Assembly (NCBI GenBank): GCA_021799275.1 | Contig: JAJZAT010000007.1 | Location: 1-64,000, forward strand | Source of the DNA: Bacillota bacterium | GTDB taxonomy: Bacteria; Bacillota; Sulfobacillia; JAJZYS01; JAJYTV01 | DNA: 64,000 nt | Direction: 5' to 3' | Part shown: positions 50,620-60,311 of the stretch, one piece after another | Numbering within the stretch: position 1 is the stretch's first letter | Layout: the number at the start of each line of letters is the position of its first letter | Made by a program: the position numbers and the translations under genes | The notes under the pieces: generated by a model | Seen by the model: only the letters and a program-made list of their open reading frames with translations | What the model was told of the DNA's origin: nothing | Databases searched by the model: none

Positions 50620-51365
50620 CTTGTTGCAGTGGGCATCGCCCGAGCGACCGAACGGGCCCCGCACCCGTGTGCCACGACCGGTCGCACCAGCCGGGGCACT
50701 TCATGCGACATAGGACTTCGAGCCGCGAGCCAGCTGGGCACTCCTCCCTTCTTCCTACCACCGCGGAGGATAGTGCCAAGGCGCATGGGCCGGCCTGTTC
50801 CGCTCCAAGACTTCTGCTCCATGGGCACAGTGGCGGACCATGCGGCAAAGATATCGCCGATGGGTCAGGGCCGCCTGCGCGAATCCGGGCACGCAAGCCT
50901 GCCCGGCCAACCGTCCCTATGCACTTCCGGCATCCAACCGGAGCATGCGGCAAAGCGCTGCCAGCTTGCCAGACTAGTCCATTCGAGAAAGAGGACTGTG
51001 ATCACAAGCAGCGTCCACAAGTGCATTGTTTCACATAGTGGCGTGTCGTGTGATGTTGTAGGACGGATGCCTCGGTATGGGGCGAGCTGTTACCGCAGAA
51101 CGAGCCGACCCGCATCGCCTCCCCGGCGAGGAGGAGGGAGGCGGAGATGCGGGACGCGACCCGCGTCACGGGGCGCACGCGCTTCCCCCGTTGCGCCCGG
51201 CGGCGCCCGCGGTCCGGATGGATCAGCTCAAGTGGCCGTCTTCTGCGGCCGAGCCGTCCAGGCCGTTTCAAGTCTGGAGAGGATCGCCGCAGACGCCTCC
51301 TGCGCGAGGCAGCACAGCGAACATCCGCCCATGCGCAATCGTCAGAGATCCAAGGAGGAAACAAG
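50620..51365. other. Long leader region upstream of secreted cassette 1
   Basis: About 750 nt without a convincing gene. It contains an exact 12-bp direct repeat, CATGCGGCAAAG, at 50839-50850 and 50944-50955, the shared element at 51020-51035, and the ribosome binding site AAGGAGGA just before 51366. The distance from element to start codon is 330 nt. Confidence 0.55.
51020..51035 (+). promoter_or_regulatory. Shared element, copy B
   Basis: AGTGC-ATTGTT-TCACA, preceded by GCGTCC-ACA and followed by TAGTG exactly as in copy A. It lies 330 nt upstream of the first gene of secreted cassette 1. Confidence 0.6.
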
Positions 51366-52175
51366 ATGCAGTTCCGCAAGAGCATCGGGACCCTGGCAGG
51401 TCTCGCAGCCGCAGCGACCATGGTGGTCGCGACCGCCGCACCGGCGTTCGCCGCCTCGACCGGCGGCCTTACCGTCTACGCCGACACCGTCACAGACCAG
51501 GGCTGCGTGCAGACCAACGTGTTCCACCGCGGTGTCGATGGCATCGTCTGGCGCATCAACGTGCTCCAGAACGGCCAGCAGGACAAGAACGCCACCGTGA
51601 CCGTGCAGGTCAAGGGCGGCAAGACGTTCAAGGCGCCCTTCAACACCAAGGACGGCTTCTACACCGCGTTCTGGCCGCTCCCGGTCACCCAGCACACCGG
51701 CACCATCCAGTACACCGTCGCCGCCACGGACGGCTCGGCCACAGGCTCCTACCAGCCGCAGTTCATGGTCGCCCCGTCCGAGCTCATGATCGTCCCCGCG
51801 ACCTACACCGTGAACGCCAAGGTCGGCGCGGGCGCCAAGGCGGTCACGCTGTTCGGCAAGGCCGTCAAGGCCATCCCGGTCTCCGCGGCCGTGGACCTCG
51901 TGACGTCGTCCCACGGCAAGACCTCGCTTGCCCCGATGACCTCCGGCACCGTCAAGGCCCAGATCGGGCTCGAGGGCAACATCAACGCCAAGGGCGAGCA
52001 GATCGTCAACAAGACGGTCGCGATGCGCTACAACGCTTCGAGCAAGACCTGGGTGGGCAGCATCCCGACCGCCGGCCTCAAGGCGGGCCTCTACGTCGTC
52101 GTCGTGAACGCGGCCGACCACGCCGCGCCGGCCAACACCGGCACGGGCACCTCGTTCGCTTTCACGGTACAGTAA
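51366..52175 (+). CDS. Secreted beta-sandwich-like protein, cassette 1 gene A
   Basis: The 269-residue product has a signal peptide (LAGLAAAATMVVATAAPAFAA) and two Ig-like beta domains. The first begins LTVYADTVTDQGCVQTNVFHRG, with a Cys and a His conserved in the paralogue at 54260, and reads on through VWRINVLQNGQQ; the second contains IGLEGNINAKGEQIVNKTV. No enzyme motif is seen. A strong AAGGAGGA precedes ATG 51366. The stop is one base before gene B, so both are made together. Confidence 0.8.
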   Translation: MQFRKSIGTLAGLAAAATMVVATAAPAFAASTGGLTVYADTVTDQGCVQTNVFHRGVDGIVWRINVLQNGQQDKNATVTVQVKGGKTFKAPFNTKDGFYTAFWPLPVTQHTGTIQYTVAATDGSATGSYQPQFMVAPSELMIVPATYTVNAKVGAGAKAVTLFGKAVKAIPVSAAVDLVTSSHGKTSLAPMTSGTVKAQIGLEGNINAKGEQIVNKTVAMRYNASSKTWVGSIPTAGLKAGLYVVVVNAADHAAPANTGTGTSFAFTVQ

Positions 52176-52176
52176 C

Positions 52177-53625
52177 ATGGCACGGGCGTTAGTTCGGAAC
52201 TCCCTGCGGTCCCTGGCCCTCGTCGCCCTCGCTGCGGTTACGGTGGCCGGCTTCAGTGCGCCCGCTTTCGCCGGCGGCTCTGGCGCGAGCGCTCCTGCCA
52301 CCAGTGGGCAGATCAATGTACTCACCCCGAACGTCTACCCGGGCGACAAGATCCAGTGGACGGCAACGGGTCTCACACCGAACGCAACGCTCGACCTGGA
52401 CTGGCAGACCGTCAGCGGTCACTGGGTAGTGAGCGGCGATGCTCTCGGTACGAGCACCGAGGCACCGGCGAGTTACACCTTCGGCAGCAAGCAGATCGGC
52501 ACCGTGCAGACGTCCGCGACCGGCACGGCATCGGGTTCGTTCCCGGTGCCGGCCGGTTTCGGCGGCACGCACAACTTCCAGCTGACGGACGCCAACGGGA
52601 CGGTGGAGGCGGTCGGCAGCGTCGCCGAGTGGCCGTCCGCTACCATCGCCCAAACCACGGAGCCGCAGGGCGGCTTCTTCCACATCCAGGTGCTCGGGCT
52701 TGCCTATACCCCCTACACGTCCGATTACGGCGTCCTCTACGACGACCAGTACATGGGGTTCATCTCCGCGGTGAGCACGAACGGCACCGCGAACTTCGAA
52801 GTGCGCGCCGAGGGCGTCGGCAACCATCAGATTTCCCTGCGCGGCGCAGGCGTCTGGGGGCCCTACCTCAACCAGGAGGAGAGCCCATACCCGCTCAACC
52901 CGCGCTACTACTGGAACGTCAAGGTCACGGCGGCGACGCCGAAGACAGTCAATGACCCCGAGCCCAAGGTCGTACTGCCCGCAGGCACCAACCTGACGGT
53001 CACCCCGACCTCCGGCGTCGTCGGCAGCACCATCACCCTGCACGGTCATGGCCTCCCGGCCAATGAGACCCTGCAGATCGTATGGAACACCGAGTCGGGC
53101 AACCGCGTCACGGCGTCCATGTACCAGACGGCCCAGATGCCTCTCGCGTCCGTCACCACCGACGCGAGCGGCGCCTTCACCTGGGCCGGCAAGGTGCCGA
53201 ACGACCTCGGCGGCCCGCCGCACGAGATCGACCTCGTGGACCAGAGCCAGAGCGTTCTCGGATCGGCGCAGTACCGCATCCTGCCCCAGTTCATCAGCGT
53301 GTCGCCGAACCCGGCCAAGCAGGGCAGCCTGATGACCGTCCACCTGACCGGAGTCGGCTGGACCGACTACGACAACATCTACGCCGTGAACTACGACAAC
53401 GCGTTTATGGGCTACGCCTGCGGCTTCAACAGCCACGGCGACGTCCACATCCAGATCCCGGCCGTGGGCGCTCCTGGCTACCACTTCATCGACATCTATC
53501 CCTCGCCGTACATGGGCTCCAAGACGTTCCCCAACTGGTGGGGCATGCCGCAGCTCACGTACGCGCAGGATCACCCCGGCGACTCCCTGCCCGCCTTCCA
53601 CCTGGTCATCGAGGTGGTGCGGTAG
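52177..53625 (+). CDS. Secreted multi-domain Ig-like protein, cassette 1 gene B
   Basis: The 482-residue product has a signal peptide (SLALVALAAVTVAGFSAPAFA) and at least three IPT/TIG-like beta domains (VYPGDKIQWTATGL, VTPTSGVVGSTITLHGHGL, VSPNPAKQGSLMTVHLTGVGW). The last contains GYACGFNSHGDVHIQIP and APGYHFIDIYPSPY, a Cys/His cluster conserved in the paralogue that could bind a metal. It begins one base after gene A with no ribosome site of its own, implying translational coupling. Confidence 0.8.
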   Translation: MARALVRNSLRSLALVALAAVTVAGFSAPAFAGGSGASAPATSGQINVLTPNVYPGDKIQWTATGLTPNATLDLDWQTVSGHWVVSGDALGTSTEAPASYTFGSKQIGTVQTSATGTASGSFPVPAGFGGTHNFQLTDANGTVEAVGSVAEWPSATIAQTTEPQGGFFHIQVLGLAYTPYTSDYGVLYDDQYMGFISAVSTNGTANFEVRAEGVGNHQISLRGAGVWGPYLNQEESPYPLNPRYYWNVKVTAATPKTVNDPEPKVVLPAGTNLTVTPTSGVVGSTITLHGHGLPANETLQIVWNTESGNRVTASMYQTAQMPLASVTTDASGAFTWAGKVPNDLGGPPHEIDLVDQSQSVLGSAQYRILPQFISVSPNPAKQGSLMTVHLTGVGWTDYDNIYAVNYDNAFMGYACGFNSHGDVHIQIPAVGAPGYHFIDIYPSPYMGSKTFPNWWGMPQLTYAQDHPGDSLPAFHLVIEVVR

Positions 53626-53691: not shown

Positions 53692-54259
53692 CTCTCTCCC
53701 GGGCAACCGTCCATCGACCTCCTGAAGGCGCATCCCGCCAGGGATGCGTTTGCCGTCTGGGCCGGTGGGCGGAGCCCAACCGGCCGCACGCCGGTAGTCC
53801 ACCGCGGCGGCCGAACGAAAGTGCCCCTACGGCAAAGCCCCGGAGCACGTCCCGGTCGCACGGGTGGGCCGTCTGTTCCAGGCGTCTGGACGACCCGTTG
53901 CAAGGTCGCCGTAGCGCAGGTCCGCCCTGCCTGAAATGGGGCCTTGTGGGGCATGGCATCCGTTGCCATCGGCGGACCTTTCCCGTCCGCTTGAAACGCC
54001 GCACTGCGTCCACATGTGCGTTGTTTCACAATTCCCGCAGCGGTGAGATGTTCATGGGATGGTGCGGTGCTCCGAAGGGTGCAGCAGCACCTCGATGCGA
54101 GGCCAAGGCGGTTGCGGATCCCGTACATCGGCAATGCGGCGCGCTCCCCCGCCCAAAGCCGACGTCTGCCCCATTGCAAGCGGGCCACCGCGGGCATCGC
54201 GTTGCGCGCCGAAGCCTCAGCCAGGCACCGCCGTCCCGATCGTGCAAGGAGGGTTCGAA
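53692..54259. other. Long leader region upstream of secreted cassette 2
   Basis: About 570 nt without a convincing gene. It holds the inverted repeat ATGGCA-TCCGT-TGCCAT (53953-53969), the shared element at 54015-54030, and the ribosome binding site AAGGAGGG before 54260. Confidence 0.55.
54015..54030 (+). promoter_or_regulatory. Shared element, copy C
   Basis: TGTGC-GTTGTT-TCACA, preceded by GCGTCC-ACA as in copy B. It lies 229 nt upstream of the first gene of secreted cassette 2. Confidence 0.6.
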
Positions 54260-55072
54260 ATGTCACTTCGCAGGAACCTTGCCGCTTTGGTGGGATTGGC
54301 AGGAGCGGCAACCATGCTGGCTGCGACGGCGGCCCCCGCGTTTGCCGCATCGACGGACAACGGACTCATGGTGTATGCAGACACCGTGACCAACGTCGGC
54401 TGCCTGCAGACCAACGTGTTCCACCGCGGGGTCGATGTCGTCGTCTGGCGCATCAACGTGATCAAGAACGGCCAGCAGGACAAGAGCGCGAAGGTCACCG
54501 TCTACGTCAAGGGTGGCAAGACCTACCCGGCGATCTACAACACGGAGGACGGGTTCTTCACAGCGGCCTGGCACGAGGGCCTCAACACCCCGACCGGCAC
54601 CATCCAGTGGTCGGTCACCGCGACCGACGGCAGCCTGAACGGCAGCTATGAGCCGCAGTTCATGGTCGCGCCGTCCGAACTGATGATCGTCCCGGCCACC
54701 TACGCGGTGAACGTCAAGGTCGGCAATGCCGCGAAGTCCGCGACGGTCGTCGGCAAGGCCCTCAAGTCCCTGCCGATCACAGCTAACGTCGGCCTCGCCC
54801 AGGTGTCGCATGGCAAGACCACGATGGTCCCGATGACCGCCGGCAAGGTCACGGCCAGCGTCGGCCTCGAAGGCAACATCAACGCCAAGGGCCAGCAGAT
54901 CGTCGCCCAAACCGTCACACTCCGCTACAACGCGGCCAAGAAGGTCTGGCTCGGCAACATGTCGATGGTCGGTCTCAAGACGGGCCTTTACGTCGTCCAG
55001 GTCAACGCGCAGGACAACGTGAAGCCGGCGAACACCGGAACCGGCACGTCGCTCGCCTTCCAGAAGCTGTAG
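54260..55072 (+). CDS. Secreted beta-sandwich-like protein, cassette 2 gene A
   Basis: This 270-residue paralogue of the protein at 51366 matches it over its whole length: a signal peptide (LVGLAGAATMLAATAAPAFAA), then LMVYADTVTNVGCLQTNVFHRG with the same Cys and His, and the shared FMVAPSELMIVPATY junction between its two beta domains. AAGGAGGG precedes ATG 54260. The stop lies 3 nt before gene B. Confidence 0.8.
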   Translation: MSLRRNLAALVGLAGAATMLAATAAPAFAASTDNGLMVYADTVTNVGCLQTNVFHRGVDVVVWRINVIKNGQQDKSAKVTVYVKGGKTYPAIYNTEDGFFTAAWHEGLNTPTGTIQWSVTATDGSLNGSYEPQFMVAPSELMIVPATYAVNVKVGNAAKSATVVGKALKSLPITANVGLAQVSHGKTTMVPMTAGKVTASVGLEGNINAKGQQIVAQTVTLRYNAAKKVWLGNMSMVGLKTGLYVVQVNAQDNVKPANTGTGTSLAFQKL

Positions 55073-55075
55073 CCC

Positions 55076-56515
55076 ATGTCTAGGACAACGCGCGGCGGCC
55101 TCCTCCCGGCTCTGGCGGCGACACTTCTTGGCGCGGTCTCGCTCGCCGGATTCAGCCTTCCCGCCTTCGCGGCCGACTCCACCACGTCGGCGCCGCAGGG
55201 ACAGCTGACCGTCCTTACCCCCTACGTCTACCCCGGCGACAAGATCCAGTGGACCGCAACCGGCCTGCCGGCAAGCACGACGCTCGAGCTCGATTGGCAG
55301 ACGGTCTCCGGCCACTGGGTCATCGACGGCCCGAACCTCGGCACCAGCACGGAGAAACCGGTCGTCTACTCCTACGGCAGCGAGCAGATCGGCTCCGTGA
55401 CGACATCGGCGACCGGGACCGCCTCGGGCTCTTTCCCGGTGCCCGCCGGATTCGGCGGCATGCACAACTTCGAACTGAACGAGGCCGACGGAACGACCGC
55501 CGCCGTCGGGTCCGTGATCGAGTCGATCGGCGCCACGATCTCGAGTACCTCGGTACCACAGGGCGACCTCTTCCACGTCACCGTGAAGGGCCTCGCCTAC
55601 GGCGCTGAAGGAGCCGAGTACGGCGTGCTCTACGACAACCACTACATGGGCTTCATCTCGGGCGTCACGACGGACGGAACGGCGACCTTCTCGGTCCGGG
55701 CGGAAGGTGTGGGTACCCACCAGATCTCCCTGCGCGCCGGCGCCGTGGAGGGCCCGTACCTCAACGAGCAGGAAGGCCCCTACGCCTACCTCCCCCGCTA
55801 TTACTGGACCGTGCAGGTCACCAAGGGCACGCCGGCGAACGTCGTGGACGCCGAACCTGCGACCGACGTGCCGGCGGGCAGCAACCTCACCGTATCCCCG
55901 ACCTCCGGTGTCGTGGGCAGCACGTTCACCCTGCAGGGCCAGGGACTCCCGGCCAACACCCAGTTGCAGGTCGTCTGGAACACCATGTCCGGCAACCGCG
56001 TCACGAAGTCCATGTACCAGACGGCGCAGAGCCAGCTCGCCACCGTGACCACCGACGCGAGCGGCAGCTTCACCTGGAAGGGCACGGTCCCCGGCGACCT
56101 CGGCGGTCCGCCGCACGAGATCGACCTGATGCAGGGCAGCCAGAAGGTGGGCTACGCCTACTTCCGGATCATGCCGCAGTTCATCGATATGTCGCCGAAC
56201 CCGGCGAAGGTCGGCAGCATGGTCATCGTTCACCTGACGGGCGTGGGCTGGACGCAGTACGACAACATCTACGCGGTCGACTACGACAACGCCTACATGG
56301 GCTACGCCTGCGGCTTCAACAGCCACGGCGACGTACACATCCACATCCCCGCCATCGGGGCGCCTGGCTACCACTTCATCGACATCTACCCGTCCCCGTA
56401 CCAGGGAAGCACGGTCCTGCCGAACTGGTACGGCATGCCGCAGCTCACCTACGCGCAGGACCACCCGGGCGACACGTTGCCCGCGTTCCACCTCGTGCTC
56501 AAGGTGACCGAGTAG
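55076..56515 (+). CDS. Secreted multi-domain Ig-like protein, cassette 2 gene B
   Basis: This 479-residue paralogue of the protein at 52177 keeps the signal peptide, the VYPGDKIQWTATGL opening, the SPTSGVVGSTFTLQGQGL domain and the C-terminal GYACGFNSHGDVHIHIP and YHFIDIYPSPY Cys/His cluster; here the cluster has one His more. Absence of an own ribosome site and a 3-nt gap to gene A imply coupled translation. A role in an envelope layer or as a metal/redox protein is possible but unproven. Confidence 0.8.
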   Translation: MSRTTRGGLLPALAATLLGAVSLAGFSLPAFAADSTTSAPQGQLTVLTPYVYPGDKIQWTATGLPASTTLELDWQTVSGHWVIDGPNLGTSTEKPVVYSYGSEQIGSVTTSATGTASGSFPVPAGFGGMHNFELNEADGTTAAVGSVIESIGATISSTSVPQGDLFHVTVKGLAYGAEGAEYGVLYDNHYMGFISGVTTDGTATFSVRAEGVGTHQISLRAGAVEGPYLNEQEGPYAYLPRYYWTVQVTKGTPANVVDAEPATDVPAGSNLTVSPTSGVVGSTFTLQGQGLPANTQLQVVWNTMSGNRVTKSMYQTAQSQLATVTTDASGSFTWKGTVPGDLGGPPHEIDLMQGSQKVGYAYFRIMPQFIDMSPNPAKVGSMVIVHLTGVGWTQYDNIYAVDYDNAYMGYACGFNSHGDVHIHIPAIGAPGYHFIDIYPSPYQGSTVLPNWYGMPQLTYAQDHPGDTLPAFHLVLKVTE

Positions 56516-57755: not shown

Positions 57756-57842
57756 TGTAGCGCCTACGCCCGTAGCGGCGTGGCCTGCGTAAACCCTGCG
57801 GAGCATGTCGCCCATGGCCGCAGCGAAAGGAAGGTGCAGCCA

Positions 57843-58475
57843 TTGGCCATCCTGCCGACGAACGTCAAGCAGCAGGTCGAGGAGATGTTCTCCCAGATCA
57901 GCGATCCGATCAAGATGATCCTCGTGGACGAGGGAGGCAACTCCGAACTCGACCAGCTGCTCACGGAACTCGACGCGCTGAGCCCCAAGCTCAGCTACCA
58001 CCGCGCCACGACCTCCGACATCGGACGGTACGGCCTCGAGGAGGAGTCGCTGCCGTCGATCCTGCTCGAGGGGCCGGAGGGCCTGTCCCGTGCGCGCTTC
58101 ACCGGCGCACCGGCGGGACATGAGTTCGGTGTGCTGGTCCAGGACATCATCGATCTGTCGCAGGGCAAGATCGAGCTCTCGGAGGCGACCAAGCGTTACC
58201 TCGAGTCGCTGACGGAGGACGTCCACCTGCAGGTCTTCACCACCCCCACCTGACCGTACTGCCCCCGGGCGGTACGCCTGGCACACCAGATGGCGATGTA
58301 CTCGCCGCACGTCGTGGCTGAAATGGTGGACGCGAACGAGTTCTGGGACTTGACGCGCAAGCACAACGTGCGCGGCGTCCCGAAGACCGTGATCAACGAG
58401 GGGCGGCACTACGTCGAGGGCGCGGTGCCCGAAGACCACCTCGTGAAGGCCATCAAGGCCGTCGTAGGCGCCTGA
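57843..58475 (+). CDS. Protein disulfide oxidoreductase (glutaredoxin-like), probable selenoprotein with a UPYC site
   Basis: Read through an in-frame TGA at 58251-58253, the frame gives 210 residues with two thioredoxin folds like PDO proteins. The first fold (IKMILVDEGGNSEL) lacks a CxxC. The second has VHLQVFTTPT-[TGA]-PYC-PRAVRLAHQ, with the TGA exactly at the first Cys of the expected C-P-Y-C, then VDANEFWDLTRKHNVRGVPKTVINEG with the cis-Pro. Translation resumes in the same frame to the natural C-terminus. A hairpin follows the TGA. The TTG start has AAGGAAGG upstream. A Cys-to-stop mutation is the alternative. Confidence 0.8.
58255..58295 (+). promoter_or_regulatory. Candidate bacterial SECIS region after the in-frame TGA
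   Basis: Two mutually exclusive hairpins are visible. The first (58255-58276) pairs CGTAC-T-GCC with GGC-G-GTACG around loop CCCG, beginning one base after the TGA. The second (58275-58295) pairs CGCC-TGG with CCA-GGCG around CACA, with its loop about 30 nt after the TGA. Either could serve as the SelB-binding element; the distances fit only roughly with known bacterial elements. Confidence 0.5.
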
Positions 58476-58548: not shown

Positions 58549-58752
58549 TCAGTCCTTGCGGTTCGCGTCGATGTGGAACGCGGAGTAGAGGGGGCAAGTG
58601 CCCGAGATGCCGGTCACCAGTGCGATCAGAGCCAGGATGCCGAAGATGATGACGCCGACGGTACCACCGAGCCGGACGATCGCGAGGATGGCAAAGATGA
58701 CTCCGAACGTCGTGCGGATCGCGCGCTCTGTTCCGCCGATGTTGACGTTCAT
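58549..58752 (-). CDS. DUF2892-type small membrane protein (YgaP-like)
   Basis: The 67-residue product begins MNVNIGGTERAIRTTFG, the typical DUF2892 opening, and has two transmembrane helices ending in GTCPLYSAF with the conserved Cys. Similar domains are fused to rhodaneses such as YgaP. AAGGAGG precedes ATG 58752. Its placement opposite the disulfide oxidoreductase fits a sulfur or thiol context, though this is inference. Confidence 0.85.
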   Translation of the reverse strand: MNVNIGGTERAIRTTFGVIFAILAIVRLGGTVGVIIFGILALIALVTGISGTCPLYSAFHIDANRKD

Positions 58753-58961
58753 CCGGACGCCTCCTTGGTGGCCGAAAGCGGCCGCCGATGCTGCCGACGA
58801 TCGTAGTATAGCGCAGTGCCGGAGCCATCCCAAGTGCGCAGGGATGGCCCCCGCCCTCGCCGAAACACCACCACGTTCGTATGTGAAAGCGGGTGGGCGA
58901 AGGGAGGCGGTCCTCCAGGCAGCATCCGGCAGGTAGGCAATTCGAGAGGGAGGCATGCGCA

Positions 58962-60311
58962 TTGTCCGTCTGGCAGGCAGAGACGCACGCGGTTGAGCCG
59001 ATACCTTTGGGGGAGCGCCACGGCAAGGCACGCGACCTTTTCACCCTCTGGTTCTCGGCCAACATGCAGGTGACCACCATCGCGGTGGGGGCGGCCTACG
59101 TCTTCATCGGGCTGCCGCTGATCTGGTCCATCCTCGCCATCATCCTGGGCAATCTGGTCGGTGCCGTCTTCATGGCCTACCACAGCGCGCAGGGTCCGAT
59201 CATTGGCGTACCGCAGATGATCCAGTCCCGGGCGCAGTTCGGCTTCTTCGGGGCGATTCTGCCGCTCGTCCTGGTCGTCGTGATGTATCTCGGCTTCTTC
59301 GCCCTCAGCGGAGCGCTCGGCGGCGAGGCCCTGCAGAGCCTGACGGGCCTGCCGGTGGCGGTGGGGACGATCATCCTCGGAGCCATCACCGCCGCCATGG
59401 CCATCTTCGGCTACGACCTGATCCACGCGTACCAGCGCTACCTGTCGCTCATCTTCCTCGTCGTCTTCATCATCTTCACGGTTGCGGTGGCAGTCGGCGG
59501 CCATGTTCCGAGCGCCGCCTGGGGCATGTCCGGCTTCAACTGGGGTACGTTCCTGCTCGGCGTGACCATCGCGGTCACGTGGCAGATCACCTATGCCCCG
59601 TACGTCTCGGACTACTCCCGCTACCTGCCCAAGGACATCGGCGTCGGCGCCACGTTCAACACCACCTTCTGGGGCACCGTGGTGGCCTCGGTGTGGATGA
59701 TGATCCTGGGCGCCGTCCTGACCGAAGTCAACGAGAAGCTGTCTTCGGTCGGCGTCATCCAGCAGCTGTCCGGCGGATTCGGCTGGCTGATGATGATCAT
59801 AATCCTGCTGGGCATCATCGCCGCAAACGTGCTGAACAACTACGGCGGCATGCTGACAATCGACACCATCGGCGGCACCTTCAGTACGCGCGAGCGTACG
59901 TCGCCGGGCGGCCGGCTGGGTCTCATCATCGGCTTCGCCGTGGTCGGCATCGTCTTCGGCATCATCGCCGCAGGCAACTTCAACACCGACCTGACGAACT
60001 TCATCACGTTCCTCACCTATTTGGTGGTGCCCTGGACCGCGATCAACCTGACCGACTTCTATCTGGTGCGCCATGGCCACTACGATCCGGAGGCGTTCTA
60101 CAGGCCGCAGGGCTACGGCGGCACCAACTGGCTGGCGCTTGGCACGTTCGTGCTGTCGATCCTCGCGGAAATCCCCTTCATCAACTCCACGCTCTACGAA
60201 GGCCCCGTCGCCAAGGCGCTCGGCGGCGCGGACATCTCCTGGATCCTTGGGCTGATCGTGGCGGGAGGCCTGTACCTGGCCTTCTCGGGCAGCCGCAGGG
60301 TTGCGGCCTAG
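58962..60311 (+). CDS. NCS1-family nucleobase/cation symporter (cytosine permease-like)
   Basis: This 449-residue, 12-helix transporter starts PLGERHGKARDLFTLWFSANMQ, the hallmark of bacterial NCS1 permeases, and has ITYAPYVSDYSRYLP and YLVVPWTAINLTDFYLVRHG. Related proteins import cytosine, purines, allantoin, hydantoins or thiamine precursors. No catabolic partner is adjacent, so the substrate is open. TTG 58962 follows GGGAGG at 9 nt; longer frames upstream have no support. Confidence 0.87.
   Translation: MSVWQAETHAVEPIPLGERHGKARDLFTLWFSANMQVTTIAVGAAYVFIGLPLIWSILAIILGNLVGAVFMAYHSAQGPIIGVPQMIQSRAQFGFFGAILPLVLVVVMYLGFFALSGALGGEALQSLTGLPVAVGTIILGAITAAMAIFGYDLIHAYQRYLSLIFLVVFIIFTVAVAVGGHVPSAAWGMSGFNWGTFLLGVTIAVTWQITYAPYVSDYSRYLPKDIGVGATFNTTFWGTVVASVWMMILGAVLTEVNEKLSSVGVIQQLSGGFGWLMMIIILLGIIAANVLNNYGGMLTIDTIGGTFSTRERTSPGGRLGLIIGFAVVGIVFGIIAAGNFNTDLTNFITFLTYLVVPWTAINLTDFYLVRHGHYDPEAFYRPQGYGGTNWLALGTFVLSILAEIPFINSTLYEGPVAKALGGADISWILGLIVAGGLYLAFSGSRRVAA

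Follow-up and report, generated by a model that had tools for sequence, protein, structure and literature searches.

The question raised by this locus is whether the TGA codon that interrupts a redox protein gene in a 64,000-nucleotide stretch of Bacillota DNA (the window) is read as selenocysteine (Sec). Codon 137 is the sole internal stop of its frame and falls exactly where a C-P-Y-C active site would have its first cysteine, as an earlier sequence-only reading had proposed. The surrounding residues are VFTTPT-U-PYC-PRAVRLAHQ, with the VPK cis-Pro segment further downstream. The gene is laid out as follows.

57826-57834, + strand: Shine–Dalgarno-like AAAGGAAGG, 5′ of the TTG start, read from the sequence; the purine-rich site is kept in 7/7 family members
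57843-58475, + strand: probable selenoprotein gene, 210 aa, TTG start, TGA stop; TIGR02187 (PDO / AhpF N-terminal domain homologue)
58251-58253, + strand: in-frame TGA, probably read as selenocysteine 137 (the U of U-P-Y-C), given the TGA column shared with homologues and the Sec machinery of the genome
58482-58524, no strand assigned: probable intrinsic terminator 3′ of the gene, a near-perfect inverted repeat with T/A tracts, read from the sequence; spurious Rfam miRNA matches fall here

The TTG start is conserved in all seven family members and can be considered well fixed, because a stop lies in frame two codons upstream of it in three of the seven. Standard gene callers would be expected to truncate such a gene at codon 136. 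The gene is convergent with that of a YgaP-like transmembrane-domain protein (58549-59031, − strand), with which it shares the terminator-like hairpin, and in two genera the selenoprotein gene is followed directly by an NCS1-type nucleobase permease gene (58893-60311 in the window; L058:7025-8491). Elsewhere in the window, a two-gene unit encoding large predicted secreted proteins is duplicated in tandem (51147-53625 and 54059-56515); the members tested have no Pfam match.

The protein scores 196.2 bits against NCBIfam TIGR02187 (PDO_seleno_TRX; cut-off 185) over model positions 3-208 of 209, and its C-terminal thioredoxin fold carries the UxxC/CxxC motif followed by the cis-Pro. Its AlphaFold model (pLDDT 94.7) gives TM scores of 0.88-0.90 with the Pyrococcus and Aquifex PDOs and of 0.83-0.85 with AhpF N-terminal domains. 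The earlier description of a PDO-like selenoprotein is well supported, except that true PDOs have two redox sites and this protein has one. The N-terminal fold has no CxxC in any of the seven family members; a gap or GGN-SEL stands opposite the CQYC of 1a8l. Because this N-terminal CxxC is missing, the chemistry would rest on the single U137-P-Y-C140 site. Nor is the protein an AhpF: it reaches 76.0 bits against a cut-off of 502.9 and ends after its two folds, with no FAD/NAD(P)H reductase fused to them. A TrxR-type reductase is encoded in the same genome (C1:20328-21221).

We searched 61 genomes (its own and 60 relatives) and found the protein in 30 of them; the closest named records are Bacillota metagenome assemblies (LSA2.bin86, DX1.bin73, SKS1.bin49, DX1.bin42 and DX2.bin40). 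Position 137 holds a Sec or a Cys codon at each of the 30 homologous loci fetched, always in the same alignment column: TGA in 24 and TGC/TGT in the other six, which is far beyond chance, bearing in mind that the loci are related, so that these counts are not independent and overstate the independence of the observations. Residues U137-PY-C140 and VP180 are invariant in the alignment. Comparisons among family members give a dN clearly lower than dS both 5′ and 3′ of the TGA; the downstream part is therefore selected as protein, and the frame is indeed intact and homologous on both sides, as had been claimed. Within one genus the active-site codon is TGC in one genome (L043) and TGA in another (L045); the 39 bases that follow it are nearly identical and contain no passing SECIS hairpin. 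To judge from these sequences, this difference appears to be a recent Sec/Cys switch. The family would thus offer a natural Sec/Cys series within a single redox protein (24 versus six loci, and once inside one genus).

A Sec codon in this gene had been taken to imply selenocysteine machinery elsewhere in the genome. The assembly to which the window belongs (3.14 Mb, 97.5% complete) contains all of it: SelA (C45, 522.9 bits), SelB (C11, 637 aa), two SelD that score above the cut-off and each carry a single in-frame TGA at the catalytic site, and tRNA-Sec (C47, 68.7 bits, anticodon TCA). Among the 24 genomes whose gene has TGA, 22 have SelA above the cut-off; of the remaining two, G005 has a SelA fragment at a contig end and no SelA was found in the 78%-complete assembly of G002. 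The two genomes that are more than 90% complete and possess the homologue without any SelA match (G023 and G046) both have the Cys form.

We then considered how the UGA could be recoded. Two overlapping hairpins lie just downstream of it.

58255-58276, + strand: hairpin noted in the sequence-only reading, 9 bp, loop CCCG; the local energy minimum, but not SECIS-like (fails the loop-G and spacing rules)
58265-58281, + strand: the hairpin most likely to act as SECIS, with a stem of 7 bp and a GTA loop, 18 nt from the UGA; conforms to the published bSECIS rules

These rules (PMC13188914, Fig. 2A) require a loop of 3-9 nt with a G in its first two positions, a stem of 4-16 bp, a spacing of 16-37 nt and an energy of at most -7.5. 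The stable hairpin reported one base after the TGA does exist, but is probably not the SECIS; a search for a SECIS after the TGA, as had been suggested, instead picks out 58265-58281 (CCGGGCG-GTA-CGCCTGG), whose 3-nt loop starts with GU, whose energy is -10.5 to -11.2 kcal/mol and which satisfies every rule. In the isolated RNA it is not the most stable fold, being excluded there by 58255-58276 (-18.9 kcal/mol together with a neighbouring hairpin). If the 8 nt directly following the UGA are made unavailable, however, 58265-58281 forms with pair probabilities of 0.87-1.0, and a ribosome standing at the UGA would be expected to have this effect. A SECIS therefore need not be the most stable hairpin beside the UGA.

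As the plain folding-energy z-score after the TGA is weak (-1.7 in the window, p 0.06; medians of -1.2 for Sec and -0.3 for Cys genes), tests of specific structures were used instead. The stem of 58265-58281 retains on average 6.0 of its seven pairs in Sec genes, compared with 4.1 expected from synonymous codons, whereas Cys genes keep 3.3 pairs for 3.6 expected. A hairpin passing the bSECIS rules is found in 23 of 27 Sec loci (related loci that include the two SelD and a paralogue from the same genome), compared with 4.7 expected from synonymous shuffles, and in one of six Cys loci, compared with 1.0 expected. The four Sec loci with no passing hairpin are L039, L045, L053 and L062. Within the family, the synonymous codons of residues 138-149 are frozen (variation at three of 12, compared with 82 of 113 at other positions; Fisher p=0.0017, for related loci). 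Rfam returned no SECIS family over the region, only five chance matches, three of them on the terminator-like hairpin.

Taken together, we consider with a probability of about 95% that the gene encodes a TIGR02187 selenoprotein, a putative electron carrier with a U-P-Y-C centre, in which UGA 137 is decoded as Sec via SelB at the SECIS 58265-58281. A sequencing error (the codon really being TGC or TGT), or a point-mutant pseudogene making the first 136 residues only, would need just one base change in what is a metagenome assembly; yet the identical TGA occurs at 23 other loci from separate assemblies and purifying selection persists 3′ of it, which makes this explanation extremely improbable. 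It is also very unlikely that the UGA is passed by ordinary readthrough, or read as Cys or Trp by a near-cognate or suppressor tRNA. Some homologues do use Cys at the site, and a full-length protein would also be expected from readthrough, but the Sec system of the genome is complete, the SECIS-like hairpins accompany TGA and not TGC/TGT, and TGA is a normal stop here, since the gene itself ends in one.

A different matter is whether Sec insertion could depend on hairpin 58255-58276, or on a switch between both hairpins. This is unlikely, even though 58255-58276 has the lowest local energy and six of the seven family members preserve it intact. Its CCCG loop breaks two of the published rules, lacking a G in the first two positions and beginning 10 nt from the UGA; L027 loses two of its pairs, and Sec loci hold 7.6 of the nine pairs for 6.5 expected. 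We therefore rejected it as the SECIS on spacing, loop and pair counts, and retain 58265-58281 as the most likely one.

The reading frame, the place of the TGA and its conservation, the Sec machinery, the family, the fold and the SECIS-like hairpin are computed results, whereas Sec insertion itself, the redox mechanism and the partners are inferred. SelB-GTP-Sec-tRNA(Sec) would bind the in-frame hairpin 58265-58281, so that the UGA at codon 137 is decoded as selenocysteine, and the product would consist of two thioredoxin folds with the U-P-Y-C centre on the C-terminal one. Purely by analogy, the most likely scheme would have Sec137 attack as the nucleophile and Cys140 act as the resolving thiol. 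Electrons would pass from a flavoprotein reductase of the thioredoxin-reductase type, most likely that at C1:20328-21221, through the protein to disulfides or peroxidases, with peroxiredoxin-type proteins as clients.

The same genome encodes a second, divergent TIGR02187-like protein (L062:3152-3718, + strand, equivalent to G000:C5:91151-91717; 80.9 bits, below the cut-off). Its motif TSPGUGRC contains an in-frame TGA that is not followed by a hairpin passing the bSECIS rules, and some 0.7 kb downstream the opposite strand carries an msrA gene (L062:4457-5176). L053 and L054 have related forms with TSPGU. The genome also contains four AhpC-TSA-family genes (L069, L071, L073 and L075, on G000 C35, C1, C3 and C52:97335-97694) with one in-frame TGA each, at likely active-site positions (FVUPT, GGUTI, FAUPYC and YGUINC), which, judging from these motifs, points to a rich selenoproteome. 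We may wonder whether the seleno-PDO, the TSPGUxRC paralogue near msrA, the TGA-bearing peroxiredoxin-/TlpA-like proteins and the two SelD form a broad selenium-based thiol network, in which the single-site seleno-PDO would be a dedicated electron carrier to seleno-peroxidases; we put this forward only tentatively.

The protein is not the uncommon variant that it had been taken for. A ‘Homolog of AhpF, amino-terminal domain’ was tabulated among the selenoprotein families of bacteria as early as 2006, and its hosts there include Carboxydothermus hydrogenoformans and Symbiobacterium thermophilum (PMC1794560); the 2022 and 2026 catalogues enter the family as TIGR02187, UxxC (PMC9312934, PMC13188914), and four Asgard archaeal sequences have been reported (PMC11227280). 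Because the family is already catalogued, the gene of the window adds a well-supported member to it but does not represent a new kind. Like the catalogued selenoproteins, it encodes a stand-alone two-domain protein above the family cut-off with a UxxC motif in which Sec comes first; unlike them, it lacks the N-terminal CxxC. With the archaeal and Aquifex PDOs (PDB entries 1a8l, 1j08, 2ywm and 2ayt) it shares two thioredoxin folds, the TPT-C/U-PYCP motif and the cis-Pro segment, but of their two CxxC sites it retains just the C-terminal one, which contains Sec. It resembles the AhpF N-terminal domain (PDB entries 1zyn, 5h29 and 6il7) in its two fused folds and one redox-active site, yet it is far below the NCBIfam AhpF cut-off, is not fused to a flavoprotein reductase and has Sec in place of the first Cys. 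Its host lineage, an uncultured Bacillota family, is not reported in the cited literature and is hereby added to the users of the TIGR02187 selenoprotein.
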